Source: Chthoniobacterales bacterium (GTDB lineage: Bacteria > Verrucomicrobiota > Verrucomicrobiia > Chthoniobacterales > UBA10450). Taken from it: a DNA stretch of 41,058 bases. The notes beneath the pieces were generated by a model. The model was not told where the DNA came from and did not search any database. It worked only from the letters and a program-made list of their open reading frames with translations. Shown piece by piece: positions 21,248 to 26,796 of this stretch. Position 1 is the first letter of the stretch; every line of letters starts with the position of its first letter. The DNA lies in contig JACCTI010000385.1 of the NCBI GenBank assembly GCA_013812515.1, forward strand, positions 1-41,058, given 5' to 3'. The translations under genes were made by a program, and so were the position numbers.

Positions 21248-22264
21248 TTAGATTTTTTCGGCGACGCGCAATTTCGCGCTGCGCGACCGTGGATTGTTGC
21301 GTTGTTCGCTTTCTCCCGCCTCGACCGGCTTCGCGGTGACGAGCTTGAGCTTGTAATTGGGGTTTGGTCGCGGCTCGGGCCACTCGGGCCGGTCGAGAAA
21401 CTCGCGGCTGCCCTCGCGGAAGATGTTCTTGACGATCCGATCCTCGAGAGAATGAAACGTGATGACCGCGATGCGGGCGCCAGACGCGAGACGCGCGCAG
21501 AGCGCGCAGAGTCCTTCCTCAAGCGCGCCGAGCTCGTCGTTCACTTCCATTCGCAGCGCCTGAAAGATCTGCGTCGCGGGGTGTTTGCGGCCATGGCGCC
21601 AGACAATCTTCTCGACCGCTTGCGCGAGCTGCATCGTTTCGCGAAAGGGCGTCATCTTGCGTTGCTTCACAAGCTGGCTTGCGATCCGGCGCGCGGCTGA
21701 TTCCTGACCGAGATTGCGGAAGAGCTGGGTCAGTTCCTGCTCGGCGTAATTGTTCACGATATCTGCGGCCGTCAGCTCGCGGCGCGGATCCATCCGCATA
21801 TCGAGCGGACCGTTCCGCATCATGCTGAAACCGCGCTCGGCGTTCTCCAGTTGGCGCGAGGAGACGCCCAGGTCGAGCAGCGCGCCAGCAATCGCGTCCA
21901 CGCCGAGTTCATCCAGGACTCGGGCGGCTTCGCGAAAATTCGCCTGCCGCAGAGTCACACGACCACCGAAGCGCGCGAGGCGTTCGCTTGCATAACGGAT
22001 CGCGTCCGGATCCTGATCCAGCGCGAGCACGTCGGCGCCGGTTTGCAGGATCGCTTCGGAATGTCCGCCTCCGCCGCAAGTGCCGTCGAGCACCAGCCCA
22101 CCAGCTCTGGGGGCGAGCAGTTCAATTACCTCCGTGGCGAGCACGGGACGGTGATAGGTGAAATCGTCCATCGCAGCTGCCTCCTCTTGAATCATCCCGC
22201 AACCCGCTGCGAAAGACATCGAGCGCGCGAGGAACAATGCGTTCGTTAGGCCAAGCATCGTCAT
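21248..22264 (-). CDS. rsmH: 16S rRNA (cytosine(1402)-N4)-methyltransferase
   Basis: YHRPVLATEVIELL, LDGTCGGGGHSEAIL, ITFHSLEDRIVKNIF; ATGA overlap with mraZ stop. Confidence 0.94.
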   Translation of the reverse strand: MTMLGLTNALFLARSMSFAAGCGMIQEEAAAMDDFTYHRPVLATEVIELLAPRAGGLVLDGTCGGGGHSEAILQTGADVLALDQDPDAIRYASERLARFGGRVTLRQANFREAARVLDELGVDAIAGALLDLGVSSRQLENAERGFSMMRNGPLDMRMDPRRELTAADIVNNYAEQELTQLFRNLGQESAARRIASQLVKQRKMTPFRETMQLAQAVEKIVWRHGRKHPATQIFQALRMEVNDELGALEEGLCALCARLASGARIAVITFHSLEDRIVKNIFREGSREFLDRPEWPEPRPNPNYKLKLVTAKPVEAGESEQRNNPRSRSAKLRVAEKI

Positions 22265-22719
22265 CAGAGGCCGATCACATCAGCTACGCGCTGATAGGTG
22301 GATTTCTCTTCGTCCTGCGAACGTTTCCATTTCTGCAGGTTCCAGATTTCGAAGCGGCCTTCGCCACCGACGAGGGCAACCTCGCCTTTCAAGCTCAACT
22401 GCCGGCAAAGATCCTCCGGCAGGACGAGGCGACCCTGTTTGTCAGACGAACCGTGCTGCGCGCGCGCGTGTAATTGCCGGGAAAAGACGCGACGTTCGCG
22501 AAGCGAGACGCTCGGATTCGATTGCGCGTGCGCACTCATTCGCGCGAACTCCCCCTCCGGCATCACGAGAAGAAATTGATTCTGTGGCTCGGGGAGAATG
22601 ATGAACTCTTCCGCTTCGCCACGCCGCCATCGCGCCGGGATTGTGAGGCGATTTTTTTCGTCGAGAGAATGACGAAACTCGCCCGCGTAGAAGGTCTGAG
22701 GTTGCGAGTCGTGGTTCAT
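22264..22719 (-). CDS. mraZ: Transcriptional regulator MraZ
   Basis: FYAGEFRHSLDEKNRLTIPARWR; first gene of dcw cluster. Start at MNHDSQPQ (22719) preferred over 22752, which lies within the operator-like repeats. Confidence 0.92.
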   Translation of the reverse strand: MNHDSQPQTFYAGEFRHSLDEKNRLTIPARWRRGEAEEFIILPEPQNQFLLVMPEGEFARMSAHAQSNPSVSLRERRVFSRQLHARAQHGSSDKQGRLVLPEDLCRQLSLKGEVALVGGEGRFEIWNLQKWKRSQDEEKSTYQRVADVIGL

Positions 22720-22738
22720 CCGCCGATGGAGGGATTTT

Positions 22739-22773
22739 CCACTGTGATCCACTCCGCCCCACTTCTAACCACT
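22739..22773 (-). promoter_or_regulatory. Candidate MraZ operator: four AGTGG repeats with exact 10-bp period
   Basis: On the minus strand: agtggttaga agtggggcgg agtggatcac agtggaaaat; CCACT at 22739, 22749, 22759 and 22769 on +. Confidence 0.75.
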
Positions 22774-22791
22774 TTGCTCTTGGGGGGTCAA
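22762..22791 (-). promoter_or_regulatory. Candidate mraZ promoter
   Basis: Minus strand TTGACC (22791-22786), 18-nt spacer, TAGAAG (22767-22762), overlapping the AGTGG repeats. Confidence 0.4.
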
Positions 22792-22888
22792 CGAAATTAA
22801 TTGGTATTTTCTGGAATTTCGGAGCCGTTCCGGCTCGATGGAGCTCGCCATCCGATGGTTGCTCCTCTGCCAATGTCCATTTTGTTCT

Positions 22889-23333
22889 GACGCATTGCTG
22901 CGCGCGCCCTACGACGCCGTCGTTATTTCTGTCGCGCAACGGCGCGGGAAGCGTGGTGCAGCATGGCCAGGAGCTTTGTCAGCTCGCCCGGCTTGATGCA
23001 AAACCAAGGGCGCGGCTTCTCCTAGCTGAATCAGGCCTTCCAAAACTTGCCATTGGCCAGCGGGTCCGATTCTTTTTCGAAGCATACCCATATCAGCGCT
23101 ACGGAGCGGTTAATGCAAAGCTCGATTGGATAAGTCCATCGGTCGTGAGTTTTCCGGAAGGGCCACGGTTTATCGCGCTCGCTTCGCTGGACGAAGCGCC
23201 CGACCGGCGCGCCAAGCCATTGGCCCTCCGTGTCGGCATGCGGGGAGAAGCGCGGGTGGTGGTCGGCCGAAGAACGATGATCGAATATGCCTTCGAGCCA
23301 GTGCGACAATTGCGCGAGAACGCGCGGGAATAG
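22889..23333 (+). pseudogene. Degraded C-terminal part of an HlyD-like membrane fusion protein
   Basis: DALLRAPYDAVVISVAQR in one frame, continuing as AGSVVQHGQELCQLARLDAKPRARLLLAESGLPKLAIGQRVRFFFEAYPYQRYG...VGMRGEARVVVGRRTMIEYAFEPVRQLRE in another; no N-terminal half present. Confidence 0.65.
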
Positions 23334-23347
23334 CCGAAGCTCCGAAG

Positions 23348-24419
23348 ATGCAACCAGCCCTTTCCAGCCTCAAACTCGAAGACATCAGGACCACGAACGA
23401 CGCCATGTCGCGCTGTCTGCGTCTCGCGGCGGTCGCTTCTCAGTCCGACGTGCCGGTTGTCCTGCTCGGTGAGACCGGCACAGGGAAAACGCTCCTCGCT
23501 CACGCCATTCATAATTCATCCCTCCGTTCCGGTCGGGCATTTGTTTCGTTCAACGCCTCCGCCATGAGCGACACGCTGCTCGAGAGTCAGCTTTTCGGCC
23601 ACGAGCGAGGCGCCTTCACCGGAGCGCAGCAAACAGTGAAAGGAAAGTTCGAGCTCGCCCACGGCGGGACCCTCTTCCTCGATGAAATTTCGGAGATGAG
23701 CTCCCTTGCGCAGGTCAAGATTTTGCGAGCGCTGGAGTATGGCGAATTTGAACGGCTCGGCTCGGAGCGCATGCTGACCTGCGACGTCCGTATCATCTGC
23801 GCGGCAAACTGTTCCCTCCGCGAGAGGGTCGCGCAGGGAAAGTTTCGCGAAGATCTTTTCCATAGGCTAAATGGGCTTACCTTGCTCATCCCCCCTCTGC
23901 GGGAACGCGTTGAAGAATTGCCAGCGTTAATCGCGGCGGAACTCAAGGCCTCTGCGGCACGCGAGGGGAAGAAGATTACTGCGATTCATCCGGAAGCTAT
24001 GGCGACGCTGCTCGCTCATGACTGGCGCGGAAACCTCCGCGAGCTTAGCCACATCGTGCGCACGATGGCTCTTTTGTGCGACGGCGAAGTCATTCTCCCG
24101 GAGAATGTGCTGTTTTCGCCGGATCTCCCCTCGAGCAATGCCGGAGAAAGAAAAGGAGAGCACCGCAGCCCTTCATGGCGGTATTTACGGCTCCGAGAGC
24201 CGGGATTTCTCGCTCTCCGTCGCGCTTGCGCGTCACATTCATTTCGTTTACGACCGGACGAACCATAATCAGCGGCTCACAGCGAAGCTTTTGGGCATTT
24301 CGCGCTCGAGGCTCACGCGACACCTGCGAGCACTGCGCCACGATGAGGCCAACGGTTCGAATCCGATGCCACAAAGCAGCGGAAACGAGGCAATCGTGCG
24401 CGTGCGAAGGGAAGGGTAA
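23348..24419 (+). pseudogene. Sigma-54 interacting AAA+ / Fis-type activator split by a frameshift
   Basis: AAA+ domain (GETGTGKT, GAFTGA, GGTLFLDEI) in frame from 23348, stop at 24268; the Fis-type HTH (NQRLTAKLLGISRSRLTRHLRAL) is in the +1 frame ending 24419. Likely 1-nt indel near the A-rich run at ~24145-24155. Confidence 0.8.
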
Positions 24420-24557
24420 ACGAATGGCCGAAAGTTTCTCCGTAATCATAAGTCTCTTTTGGCGAGAGCCAAAGGACGGTATTCCGCGCGTTTGCTCTTC
24501 CCCGTCTTTCGCGGGGTGCGGGATGTGGCACGCGAGGTGTTACTAGGAAGCGGCAAG

Positions 24558-24728
24558 GTGAGTGCATCGAAAACAAAAGAAGGTGCGCAAGCTGGAGATC
24601 CAAAACATCAAAAGCAGGAGCGTCAAAAAGAGAAGCTCATTCGCTTGGATGATCTGATTCCAAAGCAGAACGTCCGCGGCGGTGGCAAATCATTTTTCGG
24701 CGCATCCGACACCCAGAAACCAAACTAA
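24558..24728 (+). CDS. Short Lys-rich peptide with GG motif (candidate precursor 1)
   Basis: GTG start with AGGAAG 7 nt upstream; 56 aa ending ...LIRLDDLIPKQNVRGGGKSFFGASDTQKPN. Confidence 0.6.
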   Translation: MSASKTKEGAQAGDPKHQKQERQKEKLIRLDDLIPKQNVRGGGKSFFGASDTQKPN

Positions 24729-24748
24729 AACATAAAGGAATAGTCAGT

Positions 24749-24946
24749 ATGCCACAGAAAAAAGAAACCAGTCGGACAACCCAGAAAAAGCCCGGTGTGA
24801 AGGTGCAGGACCTCGCGCCGAAGAAAGACGCTAAAGGCGGTGGCGGAAAAGGAACACAGGGCAGCAACCTCTCAGGAGGCGGCAAGCTCTCAGGAAGCAG
24901 CCTCTCGGGGGGCGGCTCAACCAGCACAAGCAGCTCGCTCGCCTAA
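24749..24946 (+). CDS. Short Lys-rich peptide with GG motif and Gly/Ser-rich tail (candidate precursor 2)
   Basis: MPQKKETSRTTQKKPGVKVQDLAPKKDAKGGGGKGTQGSNLSGGGKLSGSSLSGGGSTSTSSSLA; AAGGA upstream. Confidence 0.7.
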   Translation: MPQKKETSRTTQKKPGVKVQDLAPKKDAKGGGGKGTQGSNLSGGGKLSGSSLSGGGSTSTSSSLA

Positions 24947-25019
24947 GTAACGGGCTTGCCAGCCGCCGTCGCGGTCCAATCCCACGATCGGCTAACGATA
25001 ATGAAAGAGACTAAAAGAT

Positions 25020-25121
25020 ATGACAACGAAAAGTAAAAGCTCGAAGTCGAGCAGCACTAAGAAACCAAAAGGGAAAGCTCAGGATCTTGCGCCGAAGAAG
25101 GACGCTAAGGGGGGCGCGTAA
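25020..25121 (+). CDS. Short Lys-rich peptide ending at the GG motif (candidate precursor 3, 'leader only')
   Basis: MTTKSKSSKSSSTKKPKGKAQDLAPKKDAKGGA*, 33 aa; too short for the ORF track. Confidence 0.6.
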   Translation: MTTKSKSSKSSSTKKPKGKAQDLAPKKDAKGGA

Positions 25122-25202
25122 CGCAGGGGCGCGGAACGCCTTTTCCTGGGATCGGGGCTTACCAACTCCTCAGAACGAAAACCGAGAACTAGTTCTCACA
25201 TT

Positions 25203-25240
25203 GTTGCGCGCCTCCGGCGATTGCCTGGAGGCGCGACAAC
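25203..25240. terminator. GC-rich hairpin downstream of the peptide genes; terminator-like but no T-tract
   Basis: gttgcgcgcctcc ... ggaggcgcgacaac. Confidence 0.35.
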
Positions 25241-25522
25241 GATCGCCGGGTGAGAAAACTTCCGCAACGCAGGTCGCGTCCGTTGCCGGGAGGCGATGAA
25301 TCTGTTCAGAAATCTTCCTGAAGCTTCAGATCGTGAAACGAGCAAAGACGCACGTCTTGCCGCTCAATTTCATCCCGAGCCTCTTGCGAGCACAAAACTC
25401 GAAGCTCATTTCGCGTTCTGCGAGGTAAACTGAATCCAAGCCTTCCCCGTAACCAGGATGGCATCCCAGTTCAGTCCAACCGACCGGCAAGGTCACAAGC
25501 ATGGAATTTTTCGCCTGTTAAC

Positions 25523-26020
25523 GTGCTGAATATGAACTGGCGGATCCCCGCGGTTGTTCTCTGCTTTTTCAACGCCGGTCTGGCCCGCGCGCAGCTGCAA
25601 TCGCCCGCCGCCTCCGACGCAGTGCGGGTCACGGTTTCGCGGCATGAGGATGGCTCGCGCACTGCCTACGAGATGGACCCAGCCAACAAGAAAGCGCTAG
25701 CCACAACTACGAACGCGGCCGGCAAGACACTCGAAACAATCAAATACCAGCTCGACGACGCCGGCCGGTTTTCCACCGGCAATGTTTTCGGACCGGACGG
25801 TCAGCTCCGTTTTAAGACAGTTTACAAGTATGGTCCGAATGGGCAGCTTCTCGAGGAGACACAGCTCACGAAAGATGGCGTGGTGAAGCTTAAGCTCGTC
25901 TATAGTTACGACGGGAGCGACAAGCAGAACGGTTATTCGGTTTACGACGGTGCCGGAAAGTTCCTCGGCCAAACCACACCGCGCGGGGCGGGCGTGACTG
26001 CTGCTCCGCCGAAGAAGTAA
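25523..26020 (+). CDS. Secreted hypothetical protein, YD-repeat/antitoxin-component-like
   Basis: MNWRIPAVVLCFFNAGLARA signal peptide; repeated YGPNGQLLEET / YDGAGKFLGQT segments. Confidence 0.65.
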   Translation: MLNMNWRIPAVVLCFFNAGLARAQLQSPAASDAVRVTVSRHEDGSRTAYEMDPANKKALATTTNAAGKTLETIKYQLDDAGRFSTGNVFGPDGQLRFKTVYKYGPNGQLLEETQLTKDGVVKLKLVYSYDGSDKQNGYSVYDGAGKFLGQTTPRGAGVTAAPPKK

Positions 26021-26027
26021 GGCGCGA

Positions 26028-26097
26028 TGTTAGCCAACTCCTCCATCGTTGGAGGTCTGGCGAGGCGTTCGCTTGCTACCCAGCACAAAGGCGGCTA
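26028..26097. repeat. Palindromic spacer element upstream of exbB
   Basis: ttagcc...ggctaa outer arms and cctcca-tcgt-tggagg inner hairpin. Confidence 0.45.
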
Positions 26098-26109
26098 AGA
26101 AGGTTCGGC

Positions 26110-26796
26110 ATGATCGATTACATCCAGAAGGGTGGTCTGCTCATGTGGCCCATTCTGGTTTGCAGCATTGTTTCCACCGCTGTTTTCGCGGAGCGGCTTC
26201 TCTACTTCCACCGCGCCACGATTCACGTTGGCGAATTCCTCCAGGGACTCTCGAACCTGATCAGCCGCCGCAAGTTCGCTGAAGCTTTGCACGAGTCCGC
26301 CGGCACGCCCGGGCCTATCGCCCGCGTGATTCACGCCGCGATTATCCGGCATGATTCGCCGCGGTCCGAGCTGCGCGAGATTGTTCAGGAAGCGGGTCAA
26401 CTGGAAGTCCCAAAGCTGGAGCGTTTGCTCGGCGTGCTCGCGACAATCGCGTTTCTCACGCCGCTGCTTGGACTTCTCGGGACGGTCGCGGGTATGATCG
26501 AAGCCTTCGGCACGATTTCATCCAACGGCGGTTACGCTACTGTGACGGAGCTCTCGAACGGCATTTACAAAAGCCTTTTGACCACGGCCGCCGGACTCGT
26601 CGTGGCAACGCCGACCTTCGTTGCCTACAGCTATCTTTCGTCGCGCGTGAATACGCTTATGCACGAGATGGAACGCGCCGGAATCGAAGTGGTCCACATG
26701 CTGAGCGATCGCACCGCGGCCGGCGACATCATCACCTTTCAGCCACCGCCTCCCGCAGTCGCCGAGCGCGAGCGGCGCGCTGATCGCCAATCCTGA
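26110..26796 (+). CDS. exbB: MotA/TolQ/ExbB proton channel family protein
   Basis: TPLLGLLGTVAGMIEAFGTIS and three TM segments. Confidence 0.88.
   Translation: MIDYIQKGGLLMWPILVCSIVSTAVFAERLLYFHRATIHVGEFLQGLSNLISRRKFAEALHESAGTPGPIARVIHAAIIRHDSPRSELREIVQEAGQLEVPKLERLLGVLATIAFLTPLLGLLGTVAGMIEAFGTISSNGGYATVTELSNGIYKSLLTTAAGLVVATPTFVAYSYLSSRVNTLMHEMERAGIEVVHMLSDRTAAGDIITFQPPPPAVAERERRADRQS

Follow-up and report, generated by a model that had tools for sequence, protein, structure and literature searches.

The 41,058 nt contig JACCTI010000385.1 of a Chthoniobacterales bacterium (assembly GCA_013812515.1), referred to at its whole length as the window, contains three tandem open reading frames (ORFs) on the plus strand that share the motif D-L-x-P-K-x3-[KR]-G-G and that follow a degraded gene for an HlyD-type adaptor and a gene for a sigma-54 activator (Table 1). 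These ORFs, their motif and the two upstream genes had been pointed out in a preliminary description of the sequence, and all of them are indeed there. After comparison with related genomes, we consider it likely that the ORFs encode precursor peptides of an export system based on an ATP-binding cassette (ABC) transporter with a C39 peptidase domain, which would be switched by sigma-54 and of which the window holds a decaying copy; as a whole, this is probably a real variant of the precursor-peptide systems served by peptidase-containing ABC transporters (PCAT). The sequences themselves provide a peptide family, its linkage to export genes, the operon order, a promoter-like element, intact C39 residues, purifying selection and the decay of the window copy.

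A search with the back-translated motif retrieved 31 of the 214 genomes examined from the order of the window, versus three genomes for a control with the pattern reversed, and a leader hidden Markov model (HMM) matched 71 ORFs in the named loci versus three weak matches in reversed sequences. The 96 distinct peptides taken from the fetched loci separate into two classes. Class A peptides, among them gene 1, start at a GTG located 31 codons ahead of the motif, which is the start of gene 1 and of nearly all of its class A relatives, and possess, after a leader ending in LIRLDDLIPKxxVxGG, the conserved tail [RH]QLLFGATDT. The N-terminus of class B peptides, among them genes 2 and 3, is short and Lys-rich; their leader ends in [IV]KVRDLKPxKDAKGG, and their tails, which have 1–40 residues and are often low-complexity repeats, cannot be aligned. 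Several class B paralogues occur at a single locus. In the window, Shine-Dalgarno-like sequences precede the ATG starts of genes 2 and 3; with a slash marking the end of the leader, the translation of gene 2 around the GG reads ...VQDLAPKKDAKGG/GGKGTQGSN..., and that of gene 3, which is probably a degenerate copy, ends in ...AQDLAPKKDAKGG/A. The pattern of conserved leader and variable core initially proposed for the three ORFs therefore applies to class B, but not to class A, which is conserved on both sides of the GG. Likewise, the tails differ completely between the window genes and among class B peptides, as had been stated, but orthologues of gene 1 share a conserved tail.

The ratio of non-synonymous to synonymous polymorphism (pN/pS) was lowest in the class A tail (0.19), followed by the class B motif (0.24) and the class A leader (0.26), indicating that the peptides are translated and under purifying selection in the relatives; a lack of translation had been named in the preliminary description as a ground for refuting its reading. 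The leaders are hydrophobic at positions -15, -13 and -10 and mostly, though less clearly in class B, at -4, conserve D-11 and P-8 and end in GG. Residues D, L, P and GG are invariant in part because the search pattern required them, which is not so for the conserved positions -15, -13, -5 and -4. The GG is found in nearly all members, although the search pattern demanded it, and rare variants with DG or AG were recovered with the HMM. Position -4 is V in 33 of 33 class A peptides and mostly A in class B (A in 41, P in nine, V in five and T in four of 61); the leaders have D or R/Q at -12, P at -8 and mostly K at -7. The window peptides gave no match to Pfam, NCBIfam or PHROG families, nor the peptides to NHLP, Nif11 or other leader models. 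Their motif strings were absent from the literature searched, where no paper joined four of the six terms describing the system, most subscription journals being outside the reach of this search, so that novelty is unproven. The peptides constitute a widespread small-peptide family of soil bacteria that corresponds to no previously named family. An alternative reading of the locus as an RNA element was rejected, as Rfam gave no match across positions 22000–26500 of the window.

Clustering of neighbouring genes revealed four recurrent genes upstream of the peptides and on the same strand, encoding a SurA/PrsA-like protein, the exporter, HlyD and the sigma-54 activator. A motif peptide is present within 1.8 kb downstream in 35 of 36 loci, these being the loci with a match to the sigma-54 activator and at least 500 nt of downstream sequence. 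Beyond the cassette lie unrelated housekeeping genes, and we therefore take it as the unit. The transporter was found in 46 of the 214 genomes of the order, many of the surveyed genomes being fragmentary metagenome-assembled genomes (MAGs): 25 contained motif and transporter, five only the motif, 21 only the transporter and 163 neither, after setting aside one chance match (G018). Co-occurrence by genome gave Fisher p values of 2e-15 for the order and 1.7e-4 for the family, which are indicative only because the genomes are related. The suggestion that the peptides belong with a C39-ABC transporter and HlyD thus gains support from the relatives, in which an exporter with intact C39 residues, HlyD and the activator precede the peptides.

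The exporter has around 1,040 amino acids and, in locus L039, combines in one chain two cyclic nucleotide (cNMP)-binding domains (PF00027), a C39 peptidase (PF03412), an ABC membrane domain (PF00664) and an ATPase (PF00005); its best full-length NCBIfam models, HlyB and NHLM_micro_ABC1, are each below the cut-off. Residues Q329, C335, H408 and D424 of its C39 domain are invariant in seven diverse exporters, and the domain aligns to those of ComA, PCAT1 and LahT. The conserved Q, C, H and D are shared with these three transporters, as is the placement of the cargo behind a GG, but the exporter differs from PCAT and bacteriocin exporters in its extra N-terminal cNMP domains.

The closest described exporter is HetC from Nostoc PCC 7120, an ABC exporter with cNMP-binding and C39 domains that shows cysteine protease activity, binds ppGpp and is essential for heterocyst formation (PMC10986499). 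Judging HetC by its description, both chains run from cNMP-binding through C39 peptidase and ABC membrane domains to the ATPase, with the catalytic Cys in a similar position (C347 in HetC, about 336 here), and by its sequence the exporter is a HetC-like cNMP-C39-ABC transporter. Neither an adaptor gene nor one for a GG peptide is located near hetC, and for the latter reason the substrate of HetC is unknown (PMC10986499); conversely, in the exporter studied here two cNMP domains were matched, and HlyD, a TIGR04500-like partner, the sigma-54 activator and the candidate substrates adjoin it. That nucleotide (ppGpp) binding is needed for function has been shown for HetC only (PMC10986499). The qualification of the secretion system as undescribed consequently stands for the peptides, which lack a named family, but not for the exporter, which is recognizable as HetC-like with its TIGR04500-like partner.

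This partner is a protein of around 360 amino acids whose sole NCBIfam match is TIGR04500 (E = 1.5e-7; 31 bits versus a cut-off of 180; residues 54–105) and whose predicted structure (pLDDT 90.5) has a SurA/PrsA-like fold (Foldseek E about 1e-5). The TIGR04500 protein MirC adjoins a PCAT and is an essential partner in the synthesis of the graspetide rosaritide (PMC13097080). Like MirC, the partner described here is located next to a PCAT, its match to the model being weak; unlike in the rosaritide system, there is no graspetide synthetase near the cassettes examined.

A 16 nt element, TGGCA[CT][GA]AATNCTG[AG]T, occurs 28–35 nt ahead of the start codon in 31 of 35 class A genes (0.0001 with shuffled sequences), and a family-wide search returned 38 sites that mostly precede motif peptides, some of them encoded away from the cassette. 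Compared with TGGCACG-N4-TTGC, its -24 half and its spacing fit sigma-54 but its -12 half does not, and both rpoN and an AAA+ sigma-54 activator are present in the genome of the window. The same -24/-12-like element was also seen ahead of genes for LuxR/NarL-type response regulators at loci L159 and L163 (G165:C304 and G173:C60), which are possible further members of the regulon.

Table 1. Position of the features of the peptide locus in the window and, with their locus prefix, of the RamC_N genes found in four genomes.
Feature	Position	Strand	Observations
HlyD-type adaptor reduced to a 3′ fragment (residues ~245–390 of ~391)	22898..23333	+	Frameshift near 22930
Sigma-54 interaction-domain activator	23348..24268	+	PF00158, E = 2.5e-61; AAA+ part intact; frame shifted before the C-terminal helix-turn-helix
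Out-of-frame remnant of the C-terminal helix-turn-helix of the activator (RLTAKLLGISRSRLTRHL)	24195..24353	+	Frame comparison with relatives
-24/-12-like putative sigma-54 promoter element, TGGCACGCGAGGTGTT	24526..24541	+	Matches the element before class A genes
Gene 1, putative class A precursor peptide	24558..24728	+	GTG start; leader ...LIRLDDLIPKQNVRGG, tail GKSFFGASDTQKPN after GG
Gene 2, putative class B precursor peptide	24749..24946	+	ATG start; leader ...VKVQDLAPKKDAKGG, Gly/Ser repeat tail
Gene 3, class B peptide with one-residue tail	25020..25121	+	ATG start; leader ...KAQDLAPKKDAKGG/A
YdjC/ChbG-like gene remnant	25306..25502	-	Intact after the peptides on contig C165; blastn of window 25390–25481 to C165
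RamC_N + kinase gene	L127:7186-8628
RamC_N + kinase gene	L128:1725-3128
RamC_N + kinase gene	L192:6410-7789
RamC_N + kinase gene	L064:7007-8344

In the window, the adaptor fragment matches residues 260–390 of HlyD from L039 at 63% in tblastn, with LRAPYDAVV out of frame upstream, and the activator matches its relatives at 73% over residues 1–280. In congeners, mraZ and the homologue of window 25535–26017 are about 150 bp apart, while in the window around 2.7 kb (positions 22801–25535) separate mraZ from the gene upstream of exbB/exbD; this insert contains the HlyD fragment, the activator, the three peptides and the YdjC/ChbG remnant. The genome has its own exporter, split across contigs C253 and C357, which we joined by a 127 nt identical overlap at their ends. 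Contiguity of the window with this transporter was rejected, since the HlyD fragment has no match to C357 at the DNA level, and for this same reason the window locus is a second, diverged and decaying copy. A second copy of the peptides, followed by an intact ChbG-like gene, is located on C165 (G000:C165:1-2984, locus L070; 80% identity over 315 bp); there, the class A gene is frameshifted and has P-8 changed to L, and the class B leader is nearly identical to that from the window but its tail is wholly different. To judge from these sequences, what is left of the cassette in the window is its decaying 3′ part, with a broken adaptor and a frameshifted activator, inserted beside mraZ, and the genome carries the transporter at another place, in agreement with the initial supposition of a decaying or orphan cassette with its transporter outside the window. 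The genome is in 485 contigs, with 4.6% estimated contamination, and the assembly may be chimeric at about 22.9 kb.

We propose that the sigma-54 activator would turn on the -24/-12-type promoter before the peptide genes, and that the Lys-rich leader would be bound by two proteins: the SurA/PrsA-like partner, in the cytosol, and, through its C39 domain, the HetC-like exporter, which might be gated by nucleotide at its cNMP-binding domains. The C39 domain would then cut after the GG, and the tail would exit by way of the ABC channel, followed by HlyD and an outer-membrane channel. The cargo of class A would be a single conserved short peptide (...LFGATDT...), with a signal or an accessory as the best guess, whereas that of class B would be variable and of low complexity, its tails being possibly modified in some genomes by a LanKC/LanL-like enzyme. 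The use of sigma-54, cleavage at the GG, export, nucleotide gating and any role in signalling or antimicrobial activity are inferred.

Several observations weigh against this proposal. The consensus of canonical PCAT double-glycine leaders is L-12, E-8 and L-7 (PMC6959990), and the leaders described here lack these three residues, although they keep D-11, L-10, P-8 and hydrophobic residues at -13 and -15. The designation as double-glycine leaders is thus backed by the GG and by linkage to a C39 exporter, but not by this consensus; consequently, we propose that they work like the classical family, make no claim of membership in it and regard cleavage at the GG as an inference. Some relatives, moreover, have DG or AG in place of the GG or a disrupted class A frame, and window gene 3 offers a single residue of cargo. 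The -12 half of the promoter-like element is TG[AGT]T instead of TTGC, and transcription started by sigma-54 would begin only a few bases ahead of the GTG, leaving almost no 5′ untranslated region. Finally, the Foldseek TM-scores of the partner are low (0.2–0.45), because only parts superpose, and no gene for an outer-membrane channel was found in the cassette.

Some of these same data would suit Lys-rich peptides that act inside the cell, binding or regulating the exporter or the SurA-like partner through a GG that serves as a binding motif and is not cut: class A is conserved beyond the GG as well as before it, with its lowest pN/pS in the tail, gene 3 stops one residue past it, and the canonical leader residues are absent (PMC6959990). 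We consider this quite unlikely, given that class B displays the typical split between a conserved leader and unalignable cargo, with several paralogues per locus, and that the adjoining exporter has intact C39 catalytic residues. The Lys/Arg-rich N-termini and the lack of family matches might even suggest ordinary small basic proteins, binding nucleic acids or associated with ribosomes, with export genes adjoining by chance; however, their position behind the exporter cassette in nearly all loci, their recurrence in other phyla and the common promoter-like element make this highly improbable, and the linkage brings it close to refuted.

A different possibility, which would refine the export proposal rather than exclude it, is that the peptides are strict precursors of ribosomally synthesized and post-translationally modified peptides (RiPPs), whose tails are modified before export by a LanKC/LanL-like kinase-lyase half-enzyme or another enzyme. 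The role of MirC in the synthesis of rosaritide (PMC13097080) is in line with it, as is a protein with RamC_N and the kinase half of class III/IV lanthionine synthetases, devoid of the cyclase domain, encoded in four genomes beside a subclass of peptides with SDLTPKKDARGG and Pro/Tyr-rich tails (Table 1). Conversely, RamC_N was above cut-off in 18 genomes, in 14 of which no motif peptide adjoins it, and we no longer entertain a general association with LanKC-like enzymes, as it would concern only four of the 18. We found no full lanthipeptide synthetase with a cyclase, but only the RamC_N and kinase half beside that one subclass, and lanthionines are unlikely since Cys is present in only two of the 96 tails. 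The candidate of a recurrent modification enzyme beside the cassettes was likewise abandoned, the neighbours being unrelated housekeeping genes. NHLP and Nif11-type RiPP systems also have a leader ending in GG, a C39 exporter and HlyD, but most loci described here contain no modification enzyme. Overall, we regard this possibility as less likely than not.

A scan of named genomes located the system in MAGs of soil Verrucomicrobia (Chthoniobacterales, Spartobacteria and one labelled Udaeobacter), and the exporter architecture also in Acidobacteria, Gemmatimonadetes, Opitutaceae, Planctomycetes, Actinobacteria and others. The full gene order with leader peptides is present in Acidobacteria (L227) and Gemmatimonadetes (L230, L245 and L247); the activator is missing beside the leader-like peptides of Acidobacteria (L236) and Opitutaceae (L198, L202 and L211), and in Hydrogenedentota (L243) a class A-like peptide is on the strand opposite to the exporter. 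The weakest of these are L230, L243, L198 and L202, with leader-HMM E-values of 0.05–0.9 alone and otherwise relying on position and pattern. Several class A-like peptides keep ...DVxGG...[LV]FG, and some exporters have no recognizable peptides nearby. An Acidobacteria-like cassette (L253) was found in a record labelled as a Klebsiella pneumoniae MAG, a species label that looks wrong. In two Nitriliruptoraceae loci (L260 and L261), a cNMP-C39-ABC exporter accompanies acidic GG-leader peptides with short Cys/Thr-rich tails that resemble precursors of the lanthipeptide type.

Among the hosts are soil Verrucomicrobia that have been seen mostly in metagenomes and about whose secreted peptides there is little knowledge, and the leader motif is a handle for mining genomes. 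Additionally, a HetC-type architecture sits here in one operon with candidate substrates, adaptor, partner chaperone and regulator, which makes cleavage, transport and nucleotide gating directly testable. A more specific scheme, which we advance as a speculation with the chances against it, is that class A (leader plus ...LFG...) is a conserved secreted signal, exported by a nucleotide-gated HetC-type transporter under the control of sigma-54 together with class B peptides as variable effectors, in Verrucomicrobiota, Acidobacteriota, Gemmatimonadota and possibly Hydrogenedentota. If true, it would represent a hitherto undescribed system by which abundant soil bacteria communicate or compete through peptides, and would open a way to the type of substrate carried by HetC-type exporters.

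Regarding the surroundings of the exporter, we discarded nearby nucleotidyl cyclases with tetratricopeptide repeats (TPR) as partners of its cNMP domains, since genomes of this family of soil Verrucomicrobia contain 5–24 such cyclase domains each and few are near cassettes; contigs G144:C20, G175:C139 and G143:C21 carry runs of many TPR-nucleotidyl cyclase genes. In two other Verrucomicrobia (L185 and L186), the exporter and a SurA-like gene are found without HlyD or motif peptides, adjoining genes for a MraY homologue and an LpxL-like acyltransferase.
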